The notes beneath the pieces are model-generated. The model had not been told where the DNA came from, ran no database searches, and worked only from the letters and a program-made list of their open reading frames with translations. A stretch of DNA of 38,745 bases from Cyanobacteria bacterium REEB459 (GTDB lineage Bacteria; Cyanobacteriota; Cyanobacteriia; Phormidesmidales; Phormidesmidaceae), in contig JAGWXD010000030.1 in the NCBI GenBank assembly GCA_018970085.1, positions 1 to 38,745 of the forward strand, in the 5' to 3' direction. Below are positions 1,400-38,745 of the stretch, piece by piece. How positions within the stretch are numbered: position 1 is the stretch's first letter; every line of letters begins with the position of its first letter. The position numbers and the translations under genes are program-made.

Positions 1400-2545
1400 C
1401 TAAGCCTTCTTCTTCTTGGGTTGACCAGGTTCAAAGGGTAAAGCCTTGCGATCATCATCACTATCCTGGGCGTCCACTATTTTCTGCAAGTTCTCAGGTA
1501 AGGGCTCCCGTGAAAGAATAAAGGCCTGAAAAGTTTGGAATATATTGGCCACCACCATGTACATTAGGACCCCCGCCGGCAGAGGAAAGAACAAAAACAT
1601 ACCGGAAAAAATTACCGGAGTAAATTTGTTCACCGCATTTTGTTGAGGGTTATCGGAAGTCGAACCCTGACCTGAGAGAACCTGGTTGAGATAGAGGCTG
1701 GCACCAAAGGCCAGTACCATGGCCAGAATATCCCAGTGAATGGCCCCCCCCTCGCCGGTCACCCCCACCCGTCCCAGGGCTTTAATAAACAGAAAACCCC
1801 GATTAGCCGCTAAACCAGGTACCTGAACCTTAACATTAGCCTCTCCTGGAGCCAGGGCCGTAATGTGACCACTATCGTCAACAGTGACAATATCAGTGCC
1901 CTTGGTTACCTCCCAGCGGGGCTGAAATTCACTGTCAGCCTGACTATACTCCGCCAGTAAGCCATCGATAGAGTTACCCTCAGGGGTTTGCAGTCGCAGA
2001 TCGGTTTTTTCCCCTACTATTAGCCTGTTACCACCGGGTACAACAGCGGCAATGGGGAAATGGGTACCATCAGAAATATAAACGGCCTTAGGGGCAGTGG
2101 TAAAAATCTGGGGTTGAATCTGCTCAACCTTGTCTTCAGGAAAAACCTGAAAGTTAACATCGTAGGCAATGTCAGAAAAGGGTGACCCTCTGAGGGTGGC
2201 AAACAGAGCAAATAAAATGGGCATTTGCAGAAGTACCGGAAAACAACCCGCCAGAGGATTGCCGAACTCCTTGTAAACCTTGCTCATTTCCTCCTGTAGT
2301 TTGCTGGGGTCGTCTTTATAACGGCCTTGAATCTCTTTAACCCGCTTTTGCATTAGGGGTTGGGTCACCTTCATGCGGCGCATATTGCGAATAGACCCGG
2401 CATTGAGAGGGTAAAGGGCAAAGCGGATAACCAGGGTTAGGGCGACGATCGCCAGGCCATAGCTGGGCACGATTCCATAGAAGAAATCGAGAATCGGCAG
2501 CATCAGGTTGTTTGAAATAAAATCAATACCAAGATTCATGGGCAC
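1400..2545 (-). CDS. yidC: Membrane protein insertase YidC (Oxa1/Alb3 family)
   Basis: 381 residues, the usual cyanobacterial length. It inserts proteins into plasma and thylakoid membranes, alone or with Sec. Visible features: an N-terminal hydrophobic segment ([20 protein letters not shown]) with the conserved positive residue, the cytoplasmic hairpin rich in [20 protein letters not shown], and C-terminal membrane segments including [21 protein letters not shown] periplasmic or lumenal insertion at about residues 150-255 contains an Ig-like (BIG2-type) stretch, [19 protein letters not shown]; the same insertion is known in other cyanobacterial YidC proteins. The C terminus ends in a lysine cluster (PKKKKA), which fits ribosome contact. 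Downstream gene khpB follows at 5 bp. Confidence 0.95.
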
Positions 2546-2791
2546 CTAACCCGATTCAGGGAAATAGGACGTTTAGTTACTCAATTACCTAATTTACCCC
2601 AGAAAGGCGGAAGGGAGATCGATAACCTTATCCGCCCCTCTGGAAAAATTGGCATCGGAAAAGCTTAATCCCCTATGGCTGATGAGCCCGATGCATTCAA
2701 GTAAGGGAGATCTAACCTTAACCCCCTTTTATAGAGTGGGATTCAGGGTAAGGACGATTAACTTCAGGGGATCTATACGGGCCCTCAGGTC
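2546..2791. other. Intergenic gap between PH-domain gene and yidC
   Basis: A 246-bp gap with no gene that I can support. It holds an imperfect hairpin around 2605-2635 (GGCGGA pairing with TCCGCC around a loop containing GATCGATA). This could mark a processing site or the leader of yidC. No clear promoter or terminator is visible. Confidence 0.3.
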
Positions 2792-3187
2792 TTAATCGGC
2801 TTGACCGACAGCGCCTACAACCTGGGTCTGGGGAGCAATTTTGTCGTTGATGTAATTGTATAAGTCTCTAAACTTGGGGATAGCTCGCAGTTCTAAACGA
2901 CTCCCATCTTTGAGGGTAATTACCATATCGCCCCACAGCCCCACTCCTCGGGGAACGGTAACAATTTTACGAATCTCAGAATAAATGATGTCGGTGCGAT
3001 CGCGCCCTTGCCAGCCGCCAGTGACTGAAATCCGCCGGTTAGTGATGCGGTAGCGGAGCCACAGGGCTCGGGTAATCGCAGCAACGGTAAGGGGAATACA
3101 AATCACCGTAAATGCTAGCAAGCCGTTGATAATTAAATCCCCAATGTGGGGACCCCCCTCGTAGTACACATCCTCACGAATGCCCAT
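2792..3187 (-). CDS. Small membrane protein with bacterial PH-like domain
   Basis: 131 residues. The N-terminal third has one or two membrane-spanning stretches (LIINGLLAFTVICIPLTVAA). The rest resembles the bacterial PH/YdbT-like domain (RITNRRISVTGG, then IIYSEIRKIVTVPRG and a closing LRAIPKFRDLYNYINDKI). It sits between rnpA and yidC, its typical position in cyanobacteria, and its start overlaps the rnpA stop region by 14 bases, so the two are probably translationally coupled. Its role is unknown; the context suggests a link to membrane protein insertion. Confidence 0.85.
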   Translation of the reverse strand: MGIREDVYYEGGPHIGDLIINGLLAFTVICIPLTVAAITRALWLRYRITNRRISVTGGWQGRDRTDIIYSEIRKIVTVPRGVGLWGDMVITLKDGSRLELRAIPKFRDLYNYINDKIAPQTQVVGAVGQAD

Positions 3188-23534: not shown

Positions 23535-25121
23535 CTACAGATTAACGGTAGAGGAGGTTGATGGAGAGGAGGGGGCAGGGGCGCTGGGCGGAGGCAGGGG
23601 GGCTGGAGCCGGATTAGGTGCCACCGGTTTGGCAGAGGGATCAGGGGTAGGGGACGGGCGAGCCCCTGCCATCGGCCGGGGCAGGGACGGCCAGGGCTGG
23701 GGAGACGGGGGAGGAGGGTCAATAGCGGCGGGCTCAGGACTAGGCAGAGCGGGCTCGGGGACCGGGGAGGAGGGTAGAACCGGGGGCCTGGGGGTCGCCG
23801 CTGCCGGGAGGGGTTTAGGATTGCTCAGAGTCGGGTGAAGGGCAGGTGCCATAGGAGTACTGCCGTAGTCTGGCCGCTGGGGAACAGATCGGGAGGAATT
23901 AGACCACCCCCTGGAAAAGTCCTTGCCATTCCAATCCGGCAACGGTGGAAAGGACTGGATGGGATTAATGCCTGGCAGCGGCGAGACTGCCAGGGGCAGG
24001 TGGCCGCCCTGGTGTAAACGGGCTTGCAGCCCCAAGCCTAGCCCGCCACCACCAGCTACCATCGCCGTCAATAGCAGACTCCAGGACAGTTTGGGGCGAG
24101 GCAGTCGCCCCTGCGCCCAGGGGGCAGCAGCCGGTTCAGGCGCGGGCAATACTGGCGGGCGAGGCAGCATGACCTGGGTCCGGGGGGCAGCAGCCAGATC
24201 AATCACGGGCGGCACTGGCGGGCGAGGTAGCCTAACCTGGGGCCGGGGGGCAGCAGCGGTGACCACCGCTGCCCTGGGAATTGGTAGGGGGGGAGAGGGC
24301 GCGGCAGCCGGATTCAAGGTCGGCACCTGAGGTAGGCTAGACCCGGACCCACGGGATTTAGGCAGGGGGGCAGGGGGCAGGTCCTTCCACCGGGGTAAGC
24401 TACCTACCCAAGCGGCCAGGGACTGGGCAGGGCCATCCTGGCTAGCCGGGGCTGGCCGTTGCAGAGCCCGATCTAGATTTACCTGTAAATCTGGCCGCCG
24501 ATAGCGTAGATCAACCTCAAGGGGAGCCAGGGTTTGGTCGGCTCGCTGGCCAGTTAGTAAAAAATACAGCAGCCGGCGCATGCCTTCCACCAGGTTGGCT
24601 GTTTGCATCCCAATCGATGGCGACGGACTGGGGGGCAGGTCAAATCCGATAAAGCTGATCTGGTTGGTTTCCGATCGCCACCAGATCTGATCGGGTTCCA
24701 GGCATAGCCCGGGCCAGCCCAAGGGCTCAATAGCCTTTAGGGTATCAGCCAGCTTCAGCACCAGAGTCAGGCTTTGGGGCAAAGGTAGGGGGCGATCGCC
24801 AGATACCAGATGGCTGAGGGCGCTCCCCTCGGGTTGAGCCAAGACCTGATAACACACCCCGTCTTCTTCGAAGCACTGGATGGATGAGGGTAAAGAGGCC
24901 AGGGTCAGAGCCTCCAGGCTTTGCAAATAACTATAGAAAGCCAGGCGCTCAGCCTCAGGAGGAATGGCCCCAGGGTGGCGGCTACCCAAGACCCGTAGCC
25001 ATCGTAACTGGCCCCGGGGAATATAGGTAGCCTCGTACACCGGGCCAATGCTATCGTCTGGCCCCAGAGCATCGATCACATAATTACCGTATTGCAGGGC
25101 AGTACCAATGGCTAGGGTCAT
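23535..25121 (-). CDS. Pseudokinase-like, proline-rich membrane protein
   Basis: 528 residues. The first 230 resemble a very degraded Ser/Thr kinase: a glycine-loop remnant (ALGPDDSIGPVYEATYIP), a lobe equivalent (WLRVLGSRH) without the usual VAIK lysine, a catalytic-loop equivalent CLEPDQIWW lacking HRD, and FIGFDLPP where DFG is expected. There follow about 285-340 with 21-residue repeats (AAAPRPQVRLPRPPVPPVID), one membrane helix (LSWSLLLTAMVAGGGGLGLG) and a C-terminal proline/serine-rich tail of about 110 residues. This looks like a cyanobacterial kinase-derived scaffold. The lack of catalytic residues is what I can see; a signalling or cell-surface role is only inferred. Confidence 0.75.
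   Translation of the reverse strand: MTLAIGTALQYGNYVIDALGPDDSIGPVYEATYIPRGQLRWLRVLGSRHPGAIPPEAERLAFYSYLQSLEALTLASLPSSIQCFEEDGVCYQVLAQPEGSALSHLVSGDRPLPLPQSLTLVLKLADTLKAIEPLGWPGLCLEPDQIWWRSETNQISFIGFDLPPSPSPSIGMQTANLVEGMRRLLYFLLTGQRADQTLAPLEVDLRYRRPDLQVNLDRALQRPAPASQDGPAQSLAAWVGSLPRWKDLPPAPLPKSRGSGSSLPQVPTLNPAAAPSPPLPIPRAAVVTAAAPRPQVRLPRPPVPPVIDLAAAPRTQVMLPRPPVLPAPEPAAAPWAQGRLPRPKLSWSLLLTAMVAGGGGLGLGLQARLHQGGHLPLAVSPLPGINPIQSFPPLPDWNGKDFSRGWSNSSRSVPQRPDYGSTPMAPALHPTLSNPKPLPAAATPRPPVLPSSPVPEPALPSPEPAAIDPPPPSPQPWPSLPRPMAGARPSPTPDPSAKPVAPNPAPAPLPPPSAPAPSSPSTSSTVNL
24121..24270 (-). repeat. 63-bp in-frame tandem repeat within the pseudokinase-like gene
   Basis: GGGGCAGCAG recurs at 24121, 24184 and 24247, a period of exactly 63 bp or 21 residues, giving about 2.6 copies of a unit beginning AAAPRxQVxLPRPPV. 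The copies differ by several substitutions. The period keeps the reading frame, so the repeat number can change without breaking the protein. Confidence 0.85.
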
Positions 25122-33869: not shown

Positions 33870-35168
33870 CTATAGCCCACCAATTAAATGGTTGCGGAAA
33901 GCATCCACAAAAATACGGTGGTCTTGGCGCACTTTAGCGGCATACTGCTCCCCGAAATCAGTCATGTAATTCACATATTCGGTTTCTTTGCCATCCAGCA
34001 CGCCGTTGATGGCATCTTCAATAGAATAATTGATGAGTGTTTGATCGCTATCATCATCGGAGCAGCAGTGGATTTTGGCTACGCATCTGCCTAAATAATC
34101 TACAACCTCCATAATGTCATCCATGTCATTGATGTCATCCCATTCGAGGTCAGCGGTATAAGGCGAGATTTCAGTCACAAACATGCTGTTGCCATCAAGG
34201 GTAGTATATCCAAGAAATGGATCCGCGTTAGCCTGAAGTGCACGCTGTGAAACCGAAGTACGATGCCCTGCGCTGATGAAATACTTCTTAGCATCTTCGT
34301 CGTTGATATAGGACTCGGCAGCAGAGGGGCGAGCAATTTTCATGGAAATGACCAGATCGTTTTCTAAAGCCTGGTTTTCGCCTTCAATCAGGATGCTGTA
34401 AATTTTCAATCCCGCACTGCCAATCCCGAGTCCACGTCGCAAAGCTACATCTTTAATTTCGTAAGTTAACTTTGACCTGCGTTTGCGATTGGGGATGGTG
34501 TTGTAATACTCCAGTAGGGCAGCTTCTACTTTTTTGCGCATTGTCTCATCGACAGGCGTGATCATTTTATTGTTCTTGAACCTGCGATCTCCGTCAACAA
34601 TGTCTGTTTCCATTTCCAGAAGGCCAACGCGAGTGAGTTGGCGGGCACTGTACAACACCTGACGTAAAGGGCCTTTGGTGTTGTCGAGGGTGAGGGCAAA
34701 GTTGTGATCGCCGCCCTTGGCAAACCGCGCGATTTGCTGGGCATAGCTTCGCGCTCCTTGGGCAACCACTTCGCGAATCTCGGCATCACTGAGTGCTTTC
34801 TGGTAACCAATCAAGGCTAGGCTAGCGCAAAAGCGCTTTACATCCCAGTTAAAGGGGGCCACATAGGCTTCGTCAAAATCGTTAACATCAAACACCAAAA
34901 TGCCTTTGCTGTTCATGTAGGTGCCAAAGTTTTCAGCGTGCAGGTCTCCTTGAATCCAAACCCTGCTGGTTTTTTCATTTAGGAAAGGGTCTTGATCCTG
35001 TGAAATGTCTGCATAAAACAAGGCCGCGCTACCACGGTAAAAGGCGAATGGCGTCTCGGCCATTTTACGGAATTTACCTCTCCAGGCATTGGGATCAGCA
35101 GCGATAAGATCGGAGTAGTTGTCCGTAAAAGATTTAACAATAAAATCCTGTCTCTCTTGTGTTGACAT
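33870..35168 (-). CDS. DUF2252-family protein (kinase-like fold, permuted motif order)
   Basis: 432 residues. GDLHAEN (74-80) and FDVNDFDEA (93-101) look like the catalytic and metal-binding motifs of APH/protein-kinase-like phosphotransferases (HGDLHxxN ... IDFDxA). A glycine-loop-like GLGIGSAG (247-254) and a lysine strand DLVISMKIARPS (271-282) come after them, the reverse of the kinase order. This matches the DUF2252 family, whose substrate is unknown. The gene lacks HIP1 sites and reads AT-richer than its neighbours, suggesting recent transfer. It has no clear ribosome-binding site upstream. Confidence 0.85.
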   Translation of the reverse strand: MSTQERQDFIVKSFTDNYSDLIAADPNAWRGKFRKMAETPFAFYRGSAALFYADISQDQDPFLNEKTSRVWIQGDLHAENFGTYMNSKGILVFDVNDFDEAYVAPFNWDVKRFCASLALIGYQKALSDAEIREVVAQGARSYAQQIARFAKGGDHNFALTLDNTKGPLRQVLYSARQLTRVGLLEMETDIVDGDRRFKNNKMITPVDETMRKKVEAALLEYYNTIPNRKRRSKLTYEIKDVALRRGLGIGSAGLKIYSILIEGENQALENDLVISMKIARPSAAESYINDEDAKKYFISAGHRTSVSQRALQANADPFLGYTTLDGNSMFVTEISPYTADLEWDDINDMDDIMEVVDYLGRCVAKIHCCSDDDSDQTLINYSIEDAINGVLDGKETEYVNYMTDFGEQYAAKVRQDHRIFVDAFRNHLIGGL

Positions 35169-35646
35169 GCTAGGGATTGGGGCTAATTAATTCTGTTCAG
35201 AATAATAGACACAGTAATAGGGCAAATATGGAAAATACATATAAAGCTTTAAGCTTTTGGTTGTTTTTTTGGCAAGGGCAATAAAAATGTCAAGTTTTCA
35301 GGGGGCCATGGGAGAATGAGGGTTTTTTAGTCCTTAAAATAGCTCGTCTGAGTCTATAGCAGATCCTGATCCTATAGAATAAAATTGAAGTGGGAAGAGT
35401 CTTTCGCCTAATAATTTGTAACAATTCACCCATACTCGATCAGAGCAAAAATCGCTATAGCTCTCTTCTGTCAAACCAGGGTAAAATACTGATTTTCTTT
35501 CTTATGATGAGAATCTAACTACCTTTGCAAACTCGATGGGACAATCCCTAATGGGGCTCAGCTTCTAAGTTATGGCCTCCACCACCGGCAAGGGAGTAGA
35601 GGTCATGACCCGGGAGCTTTAGGTTTCAGCGTCAGGGATAGACGGA
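35169..35646. other. AT-rich 478-bp intergenic region with short palindromes
   Basis: Between the C1-peptidase and DUF2252 genes. ATTCTG-TT-CAGAAT (35190-35203), 22 bp upstream of the DUF2252 start, overlaps a TATTAT that could be its -10 element, so it could be an operator. AAAGCTT-T-AAGCTTT lies at 35243-35257. No gene or RNA is recognised. Confidence 0.35.
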
Positions 35647-37005
35647 TTACTCTTCCTCTTCGCTGTACTCCTCCTCGGACTCCTCTTCCTCTTCGCTATA
35701 GTCCTCGTCGGACCCGTCTTCCGCCGATGCCTCGCTGGTGACATCGGCGGCGTCGATCTGCCAGGCCTCAACCAGCAAGGCGAGGAACTCTTCCTCCTCA
35801 GTACTGATGTCGTCGGTGCCGACGATCTCCCCTAAACTGCGGAGGATGCTGGCGAGCATGGTCTGGGGCATGTGCTGGGCGAACAGCTCAATCGATTCGT
35901 CGAGCAAGTCTTCGCGGTGCTCGGCCTTACGCTGGGCGACGTGGAGCACTTTGTTGGCGTCGTAGGATGAACCCAGCTCCTCCAGCATCTGCTGGACGTA
36001 CTCGGCAATACCCGTCAGTTCGTCGTCGGAGATCTCGCCATCGGCGGCGGCGCAGGCCAGAAAGATGAGGGCCAGGCGGGTTTCCAGGTGGGTCTCGCCC
36101 ATGGCCTCGATCATCGCCTGGAAGTCGGCGTCGCTCATCTTGGCGAGTTCGGTGTCCAGCTCGCCAATCATGGACTCGTCGTCACCCCAGGTGCCTTCGT
36201 CCTGCCCGACGGGCTCCACCTGCCGGATCATCCAGCAGTCGCCGCTGTTGAACTTGGGGTTGACCAGGTAACTGTAGGGGATGTAGCAGTAGCCCTTGTC
36301 CCCCCAGTCCGTACCCCAGGAGTTACGAACAATGAACATCTGATCGGGGTCAGAGTAACCAACGCAGAGCATGGAGTGGCCCCCGTGGGCGGCGCGGGCA
36401 GCCTCGGCGGGGGAGGGTAAGGGCACCACACCGGCTTTCTTCTGCTTGTCGAAGGATTCGTACAGAGAGATGCCGAAGACGATCGGGTATCCCTCCGCCA
36501 GGGTGTGTCGCCAGTCGTCGAGGGTGAGGGGCACAAGCACGACGTCTTCGACCAGGAACTCCTCCGCCTCGCTATAGGCATCGGCAGAGGGCTCGGTATT
36601 GACCTGCTGGGGGTCGTAGCTCCAGGTGGCTTCGGAGCAAGCGCCGAACTCCCCCAGGGAGGCGATCGCATCGGCGATGTAGGAGCCTCCGTCTTCGTTG
36701 ACAGGCCCCTCCTTAGCGCGGGCGTTGTAGTAGACAAAGAGGCGACTCACATCGTAGGCCCCTTCCCCCTGGTGGCGCTTCACCAGGTACTCGTAGGCCC
36801 CGGCCACGGCGTTGGCGACGCAGCTCATCAGTTCCCCCTGGTTTTCCACCGCGGTCATGTGGGGGCGCAGATCGACTTTGGGGGGTAGTTTCTGGACCTG
36901 ACTGGCCTGGGCAGAATACTTCTTGGCAGTCTCGGCGGGGGGGCGGTAGCGGTAGCCGCTGAGGGAAACGGAGGTGCCATCGGGACGGTGGAAAATACCA
37001 GACAT
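35647..37005 (-). CDS. C1 (papain-like) peptidase fused to TerB-like domain and acidic tail
   Basis: 452 residues. The N-terminal C1 peptidase (about 40-265) has Gln56 and Cys62 in ENQGELMSCVANA, His210 in AHGGHSMLCVGY and Asn228 in FIVRNSWGTDWGD, a complete Gln-Cys-His-Asn set. No signal peptide or long propeptide is seen. A TerB-like helical domain (about 310-416, LALIFLACAAADGEISDDEL) follows, then a glutamate/serine/tyrosine-rich tail (about 420-452, DEDYSEEEEESEEEYSEEEE). AAGGAG lies upstream of the ATG. C1 peptidases are uncommon in bacteria; target and role are unknown, and a calcium- or metal-sensing tail is only a guess. Confidence 0.88.
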   Translation of the reverse strand: MSGIFHRPDGTSVSLSGYRYRPPAETAKKYSAQASQVQKLPPKVDLRPHMTAVENQGELMSCVANAVAGAYEYLVKRHQGEGAYDVSRLFVYYNARAKEGPVNEDGGSYIADAIASLGEFGACSEATWSYDPQQVNTEPSADAYSEAEEFLVEDVVLVPLTLDDWRHTLAEGYPIVFGISLYESFDKQKKAGVVPLPSPAEAARAAHGGHSMLCVGYSDPDQMFIVRNSWGTDWGDKGYCYIPYSYLVNPKFNSGDCWMIRQVEPVGQDEGTWGDDESMIGELDTELAKMSDADFQAMIEAMGETHLETRLALIFLACAAADGEISDDELTGIAEYVQQMLEELGSSYDANKVLHVAQRKAEHREDLLDESIELFAQHMPQTMLASILRSLGEIVGTDDISTEEEEFLALLVEAWQIDAADVTSEASAEDGSDEDYSEEEEESEEEYSEEEE

Positions 37006-37259
37006 GGGGGGTAGCTCCTTAGGACTGCGAGGCGGACCGATCGCAGTGCAGAAGCTGGGGGAAACCGCCTGAGGACGGCCGCCGTCAACGAAAAGTCCTG
37101 CGCGGTTTCGGTGGAAAGGGGTTGCCCTCGATGGGATGGCCCAGGCAATGGCTAACCTCTTTCATTACACCCTATGGGGGGAGAGAAGTCCATGGCGACC
37201 AACTGGGTCTTTTGAGATGATCTGGCCTGGTTGCCCGATCGTTTTCATGCCTCCTGGAG
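37006..37259. other. Upstream region of the C1-peptidase gene
   Basis: About 250 bp without a supported gene. It should hold the promoter and leader of the peptidase gene, including the AAGGAG ribosome-binding sequence near 37015-37020. No terminator or structured RNA is recognised. Confidence 0.3.
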
Positions 37260-37428
37260 TTTAGCCCTGGTCAGGGTTACTACTACAGCGATTACTGCGA
37301 TACAAACTGGCGGTTACCGACCATTGCCCTTACCCGGGGGGAGTTATTTGCCCTTACCCTTGGGGGCGAGAATGCTGGAGGCGTACTCGGGGTCGGCCTA
37401 CGAGGCAGAGCTGCGATCGCAGGTGTAA
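37260..37428 (+). pseudogene. Remnant of a WYL-domain transcriptional regulator (frameshifted)
   Basis: From 37272, one frame reads GQGYYYSDYCDTNWRLPTI then ALTRGELFALTLG. The next frame then reads GARMLEAYSGSAYEAELRSQ to a TAA at 37426-37428. Joined at a run of G near 37363, the two pieces match the middle of cyanobacterial HTH-WYL regulators (pattern RQGYYYTDPxWxLPxLxLTEGELFALLLGARMLEAYxGSAYExELRSAI). The helix-turn-helix upstream and the WYL core downstream are missing. Such regulators often sit by CRISPR-Cas or defence loci; none is visible here. Confidence 0.6.
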
Positions 37429-37493
37429 TCTGGTGGTGTGGCTGGGCCTGGAGAATCTATTGGTAGGTTTGCCAGGTTGGCCCGTGGAGGGCC

Positions 37494-37590
37494 GATCGCG
37501 CTTCGCTTTGCTCTCAGCTTGTAGACCTGGGTGGGGTGGGGAGATATTTTCGGTGGGTGAGGGCGTGGATAGAGAGAATTTCTGGCTCCT
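37494..37590. repeat. Partial third copy of the dispersed hairpin-bearing repeat
   Basis: Starts GATCGCGCTTCGCTTTGCTC and continues through AGCTTGTAGACCTGGGTGGG to GAGATATTTTCGGTGGGTGA. It matches the 3' half of the copies at 37591-37830 and 38383-38600 and leads straight into the next copy. Confidence 0.75.
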
Positions 37591-37830
37591 GATCGCTGAG
37601 TACTGACTGCTGGATTACTATTTTTTCACCGGGGGAATGGCGATTTCCCCCGGACCCCCTCGCCCAGGGCGTGCCGCCGCCCTGGACCTCGCGGAAGGTG
37701 TTAAAGGGTGGGGGGACGATCGCGCTTCGCATTGGTCTCAGCTTGTAGGCCTGGGTGGGGTGGGGGGAACTTTCGGTGGGTGGGGGAGTGGGTGGCGAGG
37801 GCTTCTGAATTACTGACCCCTGACTTCTCA
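37591..37830. repeat. Dispersed repeat, copy 1 (with GC hairpin)
   Basis: Begins GATCGCTGAGTACTGACTGC, shared with 38383. It contains the hairpin CCGGGGGAA / TTCCCCCGG (37629-37637 and 37645-37653, 7-base loop), then GGCGTGCCGCCG, CGATCGCGCTTCGCATTGGT, and ends in a CTTCTGAATTACTGACCCCT stretch. Base differences from copy 2 are scattered; copy 1 has about 20 extra bases around the GGACCCCCTCGCCCAGGGC segment. Confidence 0.8.
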
Positions 37831-37880
37831 GTCTGTAGTCTTTTTGGGGGTGAGTTGGGCCAAGAATCCTAAGGTTTTAT

Positions 37881-38262
37881 CTATGCACACGTCAATCACC
37901 ATTAAGCACATTCTAAACACACGCGTGCAATTATTGTTGTAGTCTATGTGCATAAAGATCACCATTGAGTGCATCCTAAACACACCCCTGTGATCGTTAA
38001 AATTTCGCGAAAAACCATTGTTGTGGTCTATGCACATATCGATCACCATTGAGTGCATGCTAAACACAGGCCTGTGATCGTCATACACACGCGTGTGATC
38101 GTTATGCACAGGGGTGTGATCGGTATGTACAGGGGTGTGATCGGTATGTACAGGGGTGTGATCGGTATGTACAGGGGTGAGATCGGTATGTACAGGGGTG
38201 AGATCGGTATGTACAGGGGTGTGATCGGTATGTACAGGGGTGAGATCGGTATGCACAGCGGT
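37881..38262. repeat. 21-bp-periodic tandem array (about 18 units)
   Basis: Nine clear units of the form GTGATCGGTATGTACAGGGGT run from 38074 to 38262, starting every 21 bp (38074, 38095, 38116, 38137, 38158, 38179, 38200, 38221, 38242), with G/T variation at the second base. To the left, three more diverged stretches containing CTATGCACA, ATCACCATTGAGTGCAT and CTAAACACA start at 37881, 37944 and 38028; their spacings, 63 and 84, are multiples of 21. No indel breaks the register. Both strands are open across it, encoding seven-residue units (VHTDHTP on minus, MYRGVIG on plus). Confidence 0.9.
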
Positions 38263-38382
38263 GCGGTAGGTATGGCGGATGCTCTGGGGTGAAGTGCGGT
38301 GTGATCACCCCTCCTACCCCACCTTGACAAGAGGGGGTAGGAGGGTGAAACTCCGACAGCGAGGGGCTGGGGGGGTAGGACT

Positions 38383-38600
38383 GATCGCTGAGTACTGACT
38401 GCTGGATTATTGTTTCTTTTGCCGGGGGAATGGCGATTTCCCCCGGACGGGGCGTGCCGCCGCGGCGTCAGGGGTTAAAGGATGGGGAGCCGATCGCGCT
38501 TCGCATTGGTCTCAGCCTGTAGACCTGGGTGGGGAGATATTTTCGGTGGGTGAGGGCGGGGTGGAGAGGGCTTCTGACCCCTGATTACTGACTCCTGCCC
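38383..38600. repeat. Dispersed repeat, copy 2 (with GC hairpin)
   Basis: Second near-full copy of the repeat at 37591-37830, with the same start, the same hairpin (38422-38430 with 38438-38446), the CGATCGCGCTTCGCATTGGT core and a CTTCTGACCCCTGATTACTG end. It stands on the opposite side of the 21-bp array from copy 1, in the same orientation. Confidence 0.8.
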
Positions 38601-38652
38601 CTGCCGCTGAAGTTATCCTAAAATAAACTCTAGTACTGGTGGTTATTTACCC

Positions 38653-38745
38653 ATGTCCGTTGCCCTGGCCGCTCCCCTCAGTCAGATTTTGTTGGCGCCT
38701 GGCAGTGCCATGACGGTGACGGGGTTGAGCTGGCCCCACTATCAA
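38653..38745 (+). CDS. Uma2-family (DUF820) putative nuclease, N-terminal fragment (cut by window edge)
   Basis: 31 residues from the ATG at 38653: MSVALAAPLSQILLAPGSAM then TVTGLSWPHYQ. The start matches the common cyanobacterial Uma2/DUF820 N terminus (LxPGSxxTVxxLSWxxYE). These small PD-(D/E)XK-like proteins occur in many copies per cyanobacterial genome. Function is uncertain; the catalytic region is outside the window. Confidence 0.75.
   Translation, partial: MSVALAAPLSQILLAPGSAMTVTGLSWPHYQ

Follow-up and report, generated by a model that had tools for sequence, protein, structure and literature searches.

Organization of the array and its surroundings

The window, by which we mean the whole 38,745-bp stretch of DNA analysed (contig C28 of a genome of 3.24 Mb in 102 contigs), contains an element composed of a leader, an array of 21-bp units and a tail (Table 1). 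On the left of the array lies a gene assigned by Pfam to the C1 peptidases (35647-37005, minus strand). To the right, the window ends inside the start of a gene (38574-38745) sharing 96.5% identity with the Uma2 gene that adjoins the array on contig C37, and a duplication of this Uma2-like gene start may have caused the contig to end there. The dispersed repeat modules D2, D3, D6 and D7 flank the element (37484-37828 and 38381-38600) and recur around the copies on contigs C29 and C19, and a 63-bp tandem repeat of 2.2 copies is present within a long reading frame at 24120-24257. The region 37006-38745 has one promoter-like site, located near the start of the leader (37866-37895; shuffle mean 1.1), and three terminator-like sites, none of which lies within the array. 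We rejected a role of the array as promoter or terminator for a fixed neighbour, considering the lack of a terminator-like site in the array and the orientation of the next ORF after 29 arrays of relatives, which is plus in 15 cases and minus in 14.

Table 1. Features of the window associated with the 21-bp array
Feature	Position	Strand	Basis
Whole dispersed element (leader, 21-bp array and tail)	37847..38398	.	BLAST and four-copy alignment; outer limits approximate
Leader, 206 bp, with diverged older units on the 21-bp grid of the array	37875..38080	.	63/84-bp offsets
Homogeneous array of nine 21-bp units, 188 bp, with the last unit 1 base short	38081..38268	.	
Conserved tail with inverted repeat 38309-38345; indels of 1-2 bp between copies	38269..38373	.	
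142-aa open frame spanning the array, judged not to be a gene	37828..38256	-	No Pfam match

The register of leader and array taken together (37875-38268) is nearly perfect, the older units of the leader included. A first-pass annotation had described nine clear 21-bp units in register, with older, diverged units fitting that grid at offsets of 63 and 84 bp, and both descriptions hold. TRF reports 38065-38274 as a repeat of period 21 with 10.0 copies, 91% matches and 0% indels; a repeat search of the window finds a 104-nt repeat nine times, shifted by exactly 21 bp each time, and puts the diverged units, of 48 nt, at positions 37880, 37943 and 38027, giving spacings of 63 and 84. Among repeated 7-mer pairs in the region 37841-38300, 399 out of 421 are separated by a multiple of 21. 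In the leader alone, the identity at lags of 21, 63 and 84 is 0.36, 0.46 and 0.63, respectively, versus 0.16-0.23 one base to either side, and lag 42 is weaker (0.24).

Four copies of the element in one genome

Three further copies of the element are present in this genome, on contigs C37, C29 and C19, and each of them has the order leader, array and tail. According to BLAST and alignment, the match with C37 spans 37847-38399, and C29 and C19 match inside the element and beyond it. The arrays between the fixed leader and tail measure 188, 230, 230 and 83 bp, all of which are 20 modulo 21, and the sole leader gap among the copies is one 84-bp block, corresponding to four units, that C19 lacks. 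The gaps between copies are 42, 84, 105 or 147 bp in leader and array together and 1 or 2 bp in the tail, where homopolymers may have promoted the indels. Identity between copies is 92.6-97.6% for the leader, 74.7-88.3% for the array and 82.5-93.3% for the tail; the array has hence diverged faster than the leader. Each locus possesses its own unit variants, which means that units were replaced once the copies had become separate. Searching the genome with a unit pattern and allowing at most two mismatches gave 39 matches, of which 33 fall within the four arrays and six elsewhere (one of these at window position 34042), against two for the reversed control. No further 21-bp array was found in the 250 kb of this genome that were scanned, a set in which four contigs consist entirely of N.

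The neighbours of the four copies belong to the Pfam families C1 peptidase, Uma2, DUF3782, amino-acid kinase, S8 peptidase, TM2, DUF1611 and S15 peptidase, to further families, or to no family, and the ORF lists place the copies in divergent, divergent, convergent and tandem gene contexts. Neither a replication protein nor a transposase was detected among the neighbouring ORFs scanned with Pfam, which are a subset of the ORFs. Four dispersed copies sharing a leader and a tail would be expected if an element of ~550 bp had transposed, with the array serving as the transposase-binding end. We judge this to be improbable by a wide margin, because the scanned neighbours contain no transposase, because, unlike in a transposon or MITE, there are no terminal inverted repeats joining the two ends of the element (taking these ends as approximate), and because the C37 copy adjoins a homologue of the gene that flanks the arrays of relatives, as expected of descent. 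This gene, which encodes 132 residues and follows the C37 array, shows 48% identity over 119 residues (E 8e-33) to the post-array gene of the relatives at the syntenic locus. By eye, the distance between array and gene is similar in C37 and the relatives, and the letters of the units, which are on the same strand, agree in places. On the basis of the gene, the distance and the unit letters, the C37 array is therefore likely the inherited one. Judged from these sequence comparisons, the copy in the window is probably a later duplicate.

Arrays in relatives and their association with a multicopy gene

Similar arrays were found in relatives belonging to the Nodosilinea clade. Among 63 genomes of the family, five, the own genome included, have a match to a 431-bp query at E <=0.001, which in two of them is only 25 bp long. 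When arrays of relatives were used as queries, matches were obtained in 19/63 and 16/63 genomes; some of these comprise only 25-46 bp, and part of them were read as arrays. Units differ widely among the loci that were read in relatives, and the period stays at 21.

Many of the arrays in the relatives lie 3' of a multicopy gene of ~95 residues, here named MFEYLEP. At E <=1, neither Pfam nor NCBIfam yields a match for this gene, which also has no relative in the PDB and no match on plasmids; in a search of viral contigs one stretch matched and no locus was returned. A search of 57 genomes revealed MFEYLEP in 33; 22 of 25 genus-mates carry it, in 1-28 copies each, and it was not found at E 0.001 in the genome of the window or in G002, G006 and G015. 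The AlphaFold model of the protein is poor (mean pLDDT 63, pTM 0.45). By eye, the protein perhaps has a short strand-helix-strand core, a view to which the poor model gives no backing.

The MFEYLEP loci that we analysed (L098-L177) are the best 80 of 89 and come from few genomes, so that they are not independent; L176 was excluded from the protein alignment. In the 3' flank, the strongest lag within the range 12-35 is 21 in 43 of 79 loci, with an identity of at least 0.50 in 33; in the 5' flank it is 21 in 5 of 75 loci, none of which exceeds 0.46. Repeated 8-mers 3' of the gene form 4979 pairs at multiples of 21, the next classes being 283 (+1) and 137 (-1). With permissive TRF settings (at least 3.5 copies of a period >=9), the 79 loci yielded 32 arrays 3' of MFEYLEP; the period is 21 in 21 of them, 42 in nine, and 13 and 24 in one each. 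The similarity between the two halves of a period-42 array varies, the lag-21 identity ranging from 0.41 (L135) to 0.71 (L144). As a control we used 1.6 Mb of four relatives, in 80 stretches of 20 kb (40 from G009, 20 from G012, 12 from G018 and eight from G011), all of which lack the MFEYLEP core motif. None of their 38 intergenic arrays has a period of 21 or 42, and 96 arrays lie within long reading frames, five of them with period 21; the reading-frame filter was used on these random control stretches only. The only 21-bp array of intergenic appearance within the first 400 kb of G009 seems, by eye, to be coding. In G007, the stretch with the array (L013:1420-1680 and 2421-3119) has no MFEYLEP frame among its listed ORFs, and a gene encoding a ParA-type ATPase domain begins ~750 bp from the array.

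Thirty relatives of MFEYLEP from other genera were fetched and 29 measured, one of these (L202) at a misplaced frame. The best lag is 21 in eight, a set in which L183 is a 7-bp repeat and several cases are weak. The tandem array of 7 bp follows the relative of the gene in L183, which belongs to another family (G036); three heptamers equal 21 bp. At L204 (genus g5), a 21-bp array with an identity of 0.65 is located ~170 bases after the MFEYLEP relative, and its letters look unrelated.

The orientation of the units relative to MFEYLEP is identical in 25 of 26 arrays. This constancy, together with the location of the arrays 3' of the gene, would suit an element acting at the RNA level, in which the array is transcribed (in the relatives by extension of the MFEYLEP transcript at its 3' end) and provides repeated RNA sites. 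The mean folding z-scores of 30 arrays (-2.2 and -2.3 on the two strands) point in the same direction. However, co-duplication of gene and array also yields a fixed orientation, the folding scores are similar on both strands and erratic among arrays (-1.8/-2.8 for the window, +0.95/-1.2 for C37), the window array folded as single-stranded DNA gives a z-score of -0.59, the region 35000-38745 has no Rfam match, and a hairpin separates gene and array in the relatives read by eye. We therefore consider such an RNA-level element rather unlikely, and RNA structure as the role of the array was rejected as inconsistent across the folding scores, the single-stranded DNA score and Rfam.

Finally, unit profiles place 32 of 36 compared arrays, that of the window included, in one cluster, it being noted that the 36 had been selected by their lag-21 identity. 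L144/L151, L169 and L129 fall outside this main cluster. For L129 the best reading is a repeat of 12 bp; for L144/L151 and L169 TRF gives a period of 21 or 42, and their position outside the cluster is hard to reconcile with a single sequence-specific protein. The arrays constitute a non-coding family that changes its letters while largely keeping its 21-base spacing, and that is apparently undescribed: within open-licence PMC text, no paper on 21-bp cyanobacterial arrays was found by title or abstract.

Tests for constraint on spacing and on codons

The first-pass annotation had proposed that the conserved register reflects selection on the spacing or on a peptide. For the spacing this is supported in part: the lengths of the arrays shift only by multiples of 21, both among the four copies and at the one syntenic locus of relatives. 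These counts cover six species, a seventh (G017) having been aligned and excluded for poor alignment. In 15 species pairs, the array shows 417 substitutions in 2511 columns and gaps of 21 (nine), 105 (four) and 84 bp (one), and the adjoining 280-bp flank shows 699 substitutions in 4061 columns and gaps of 1 (22), 2 (nine) and 4 bp (two). Hence, at similar divergence, all array gaps are multiples of 21 and all flank gaps are of 1, 2 or 4 bp. Counted as events, there are three gaps in the array, all multiples of 21, with a minimum of 74 substitutions, and five gaps in the flank, none a multiple of 21, with 116 substitutions. The direction is clear, but the single event-level test of the constraint, that is, the deficit of small indels in the array (0 versus 5 events), is weak (Poisson 0.04, Fisher 0.16). 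Moreover, register slips of one base exist elsewhere (L136/L141/L172, L167 and L112), and detection by lag 21 favours well-kept registers.

These results bear on the main rival to the reading that we favour below, namely that the array is a neutral minisatellite, in which an old 21-bp tandem duplication spread together with its surroundings, recombination in whole units keeps the register and mispaired variants are purged. Length changes by whole units and homogenization within a locus are products of unequal crossing-over, the marginal deficit of small indels fits a neutral process, and the one-base slips are evidently tolerated. On the other hand, L144/L151 and L169 retain 21 bp outside the main cluster (though they were picked for lag 21), and periods of 21 and 42 are absent among the 38 other intergenic arrays of relatives. 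In addition, 25 arrays together give sharp peaks of identity at lags of 21, 42, 63 and 84, without decay and without a 7-bp sub-period, so that units four apart are as similar as adjacent ones.

The second possibility, a repetitive heptapeptide protein of the VHTDHTP type encoded by the array, has in its favour that 21 bp equal seven codons and that, in each of the four copies, one minus-strand frame runs through leader and array without a stop. Of the claim that both strands are open, only this frame stood; the plus-strand frames of leader and array have 8, 3 and 8 stops. The C37 array alone leans to one codon class (10, 9, 23; p 0.058), and L168, L154 and L174 have codon-position p values of 0.011-0.046. 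Nevertheless, unlike in coding heptad repeats, a constraint by codon position is absent overall: these three are the only ones of 36 arrays with p<0.05, the combined Fisher value is 0.72, and the changes between species are distributed as 18, 23 and 22 over the three positions. Three pairwise comparisons of minus-strand frames in the leader give 12-14 non-synonymous to 4-6 synonymous changes and thus no sign of purifying selection. Inspection by eye shows stops in the most likely frame of relatives, one-base slips occur, and no Pfam match was obtained. Given the lack of an overall codon-position bias and of an excess of synonymous changes, we rejected the peptide reading, whose probability we regard as very small.

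Conservation within the unit

In 32 arrays (L129, L144, L151 and L169 were left out of this and of the rhythm, orientation and dyad analyses), mismatches between adjacent units are unevenly distributed along the unit (chi2 234, 20 df), being lowest at positions 16, 18, 14 and 15 and highest at 21, 12, 9 and 10. This unevenness is a further argument against a neutral array. A rhythm of 10.5 bp accounts for 43% of the positional variance (permutation p 0.006; p 0.0056 with one array for each of 12 clusters), under a null that ignores smoothness along the unit and thereby inflates low harmonics; a register-free Fisher test gives 0.0001 for 10.5 bp, compared with 0.011 at a period of 21 bp and 0.35 at one of 3 bp. 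The rhythm is not seen in the three larger arrays of the own genome, where its share (0.23) equals that of 3 bp, and it was not replicated between the six species at one locus (share 0.15, p 0.23), which suits a neutral origin. Positions 15-18, which were chosen after viewing the within-array profile, are conserved between species (3 changes in 32 columns versus 60 in 145), and position 14 is not conserved at the six-species locus; the within-array and between-species profiles are weakly correlated (0.38, p 0.09). In the AT content, power is in excess at 21 bp, whereas at 10.5 bp it shows a deficit. Dyads are not a general property of the arrays: z exceeds 2 in 7 of 32 and is about 0 for the window, C37 and C29.

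Proposed role of the array

Based on these data, we tentatively propose, with a probability of roughly 0.4, a protein-binding or architectural array that is phased at two helical turns and recombines in whole 21-bp steps. The array would be non-coding chromosomal DNA showing one face of the DNA every two turns, along which a DNA-binding or architectural protein would bind or polymerise. Selection would act mainly on the spacing and a short core, allowing the other letters to drift, and unequal recombination would add, remove and homogenise units in steps of 21 bp. The analysis shows that the array has a strict 21-bp register in common with the array family of the relatives, gains and loses whole units, diverges faster than its leader, lacks an overall codon constraint and possesses a partly conserved core within the unit; we infer that a protein is involved, how it would bind and what advantage it might bring. 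Helical phasing is favoured because of the register together with the unevenly conserved core of the unit. Against it stand the unreplicated rhythm, the AT deficit at 10.5 bp, the lack of a general dyad, the one-base slips, the failure to find MFEYLEP in the own genome, the varied gene context and the weak indel deficit. The neutral minisatellite is a serious contender, close behind the phased array.

A bolder extension of the phased array, which we consider doubtful, is that arrays across the clade inherit the two-turn spacing rather than the sequence, and that a putative protein organises DNA in 21-bp steps at many loci, many of them attached to one multicopy small gene; such a coating protein would tolerate almost any letters outside a short core. 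If the spacing is selected while the letters drift, the arrays will record a DNA-organising or DNA-binding activity that is invisible to sequence searches, and will tie it to a nameless multicopy gene family.

Comparison with known systems

The iterons of plasmids are strictly phased direct repeats, each about two helical turns long, which adjoin the gene of the replication initiator and are bound by Rep. The likeness to iterons pointed out in the first-pass annotation holds for the spacing, the window array consisting of two-turn direct repeats in strict phase, and binding of a protein is putative. Unlike iterons, arrays of the window type are found at several loci on chromosome-like contigs, their units drift far more, and the scanned neighbours of the four copies include no Rep gene.

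Filamentous cyanobacteria also contain the STRR heptamer arrays, which are tandem arrays of 7-bp units. The arrays described here are likewise tandem arrays in filamentous cyanobacteria, and the 7-bp array at L183 follows an MFEYLEP relative, but their period is 21, the excess identity averaged over 25 arrays being -0.026 for a lag of 7 and 0.369 for one of 21. Direct repeats of the heptamer TAACTGA are intergenic, have been reported in cyanobacteria too, and have been suggested to play a role; they consist of one fixed heptamer located mostly just upstream of start codons in the studied genome (PMC4679880). In this they differ from the 21-bp arrays, whose letters vary and which in relatives lie 3' of one gene family.

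Unlike the units of a CRISPR array, those of the window are contiguous, head to tail, and have no unique spacers between them. The small dispersed repeats (SDR) of cyanobacteria reportedly have units of 21-27 nt in solitary, dispersed copies (Elhai et al. 2008). The window array shares with them its unit size and cyanobacterial host, but its unit is rarely solitary, as is evident from the distribution of the pattern matches given above. An SDR origin was considered for a 21-bp block inserted in the array of G010, which resembled an SDR, and rejected: the block is another array unit, because its five pattern matches, in four genomes, all lie within array-match stretches. As in bacterial minisatellites, finally, the units (which in minisatellites are of ~10-100 bp) are non-coding, are arranged head to tail and vary in number.
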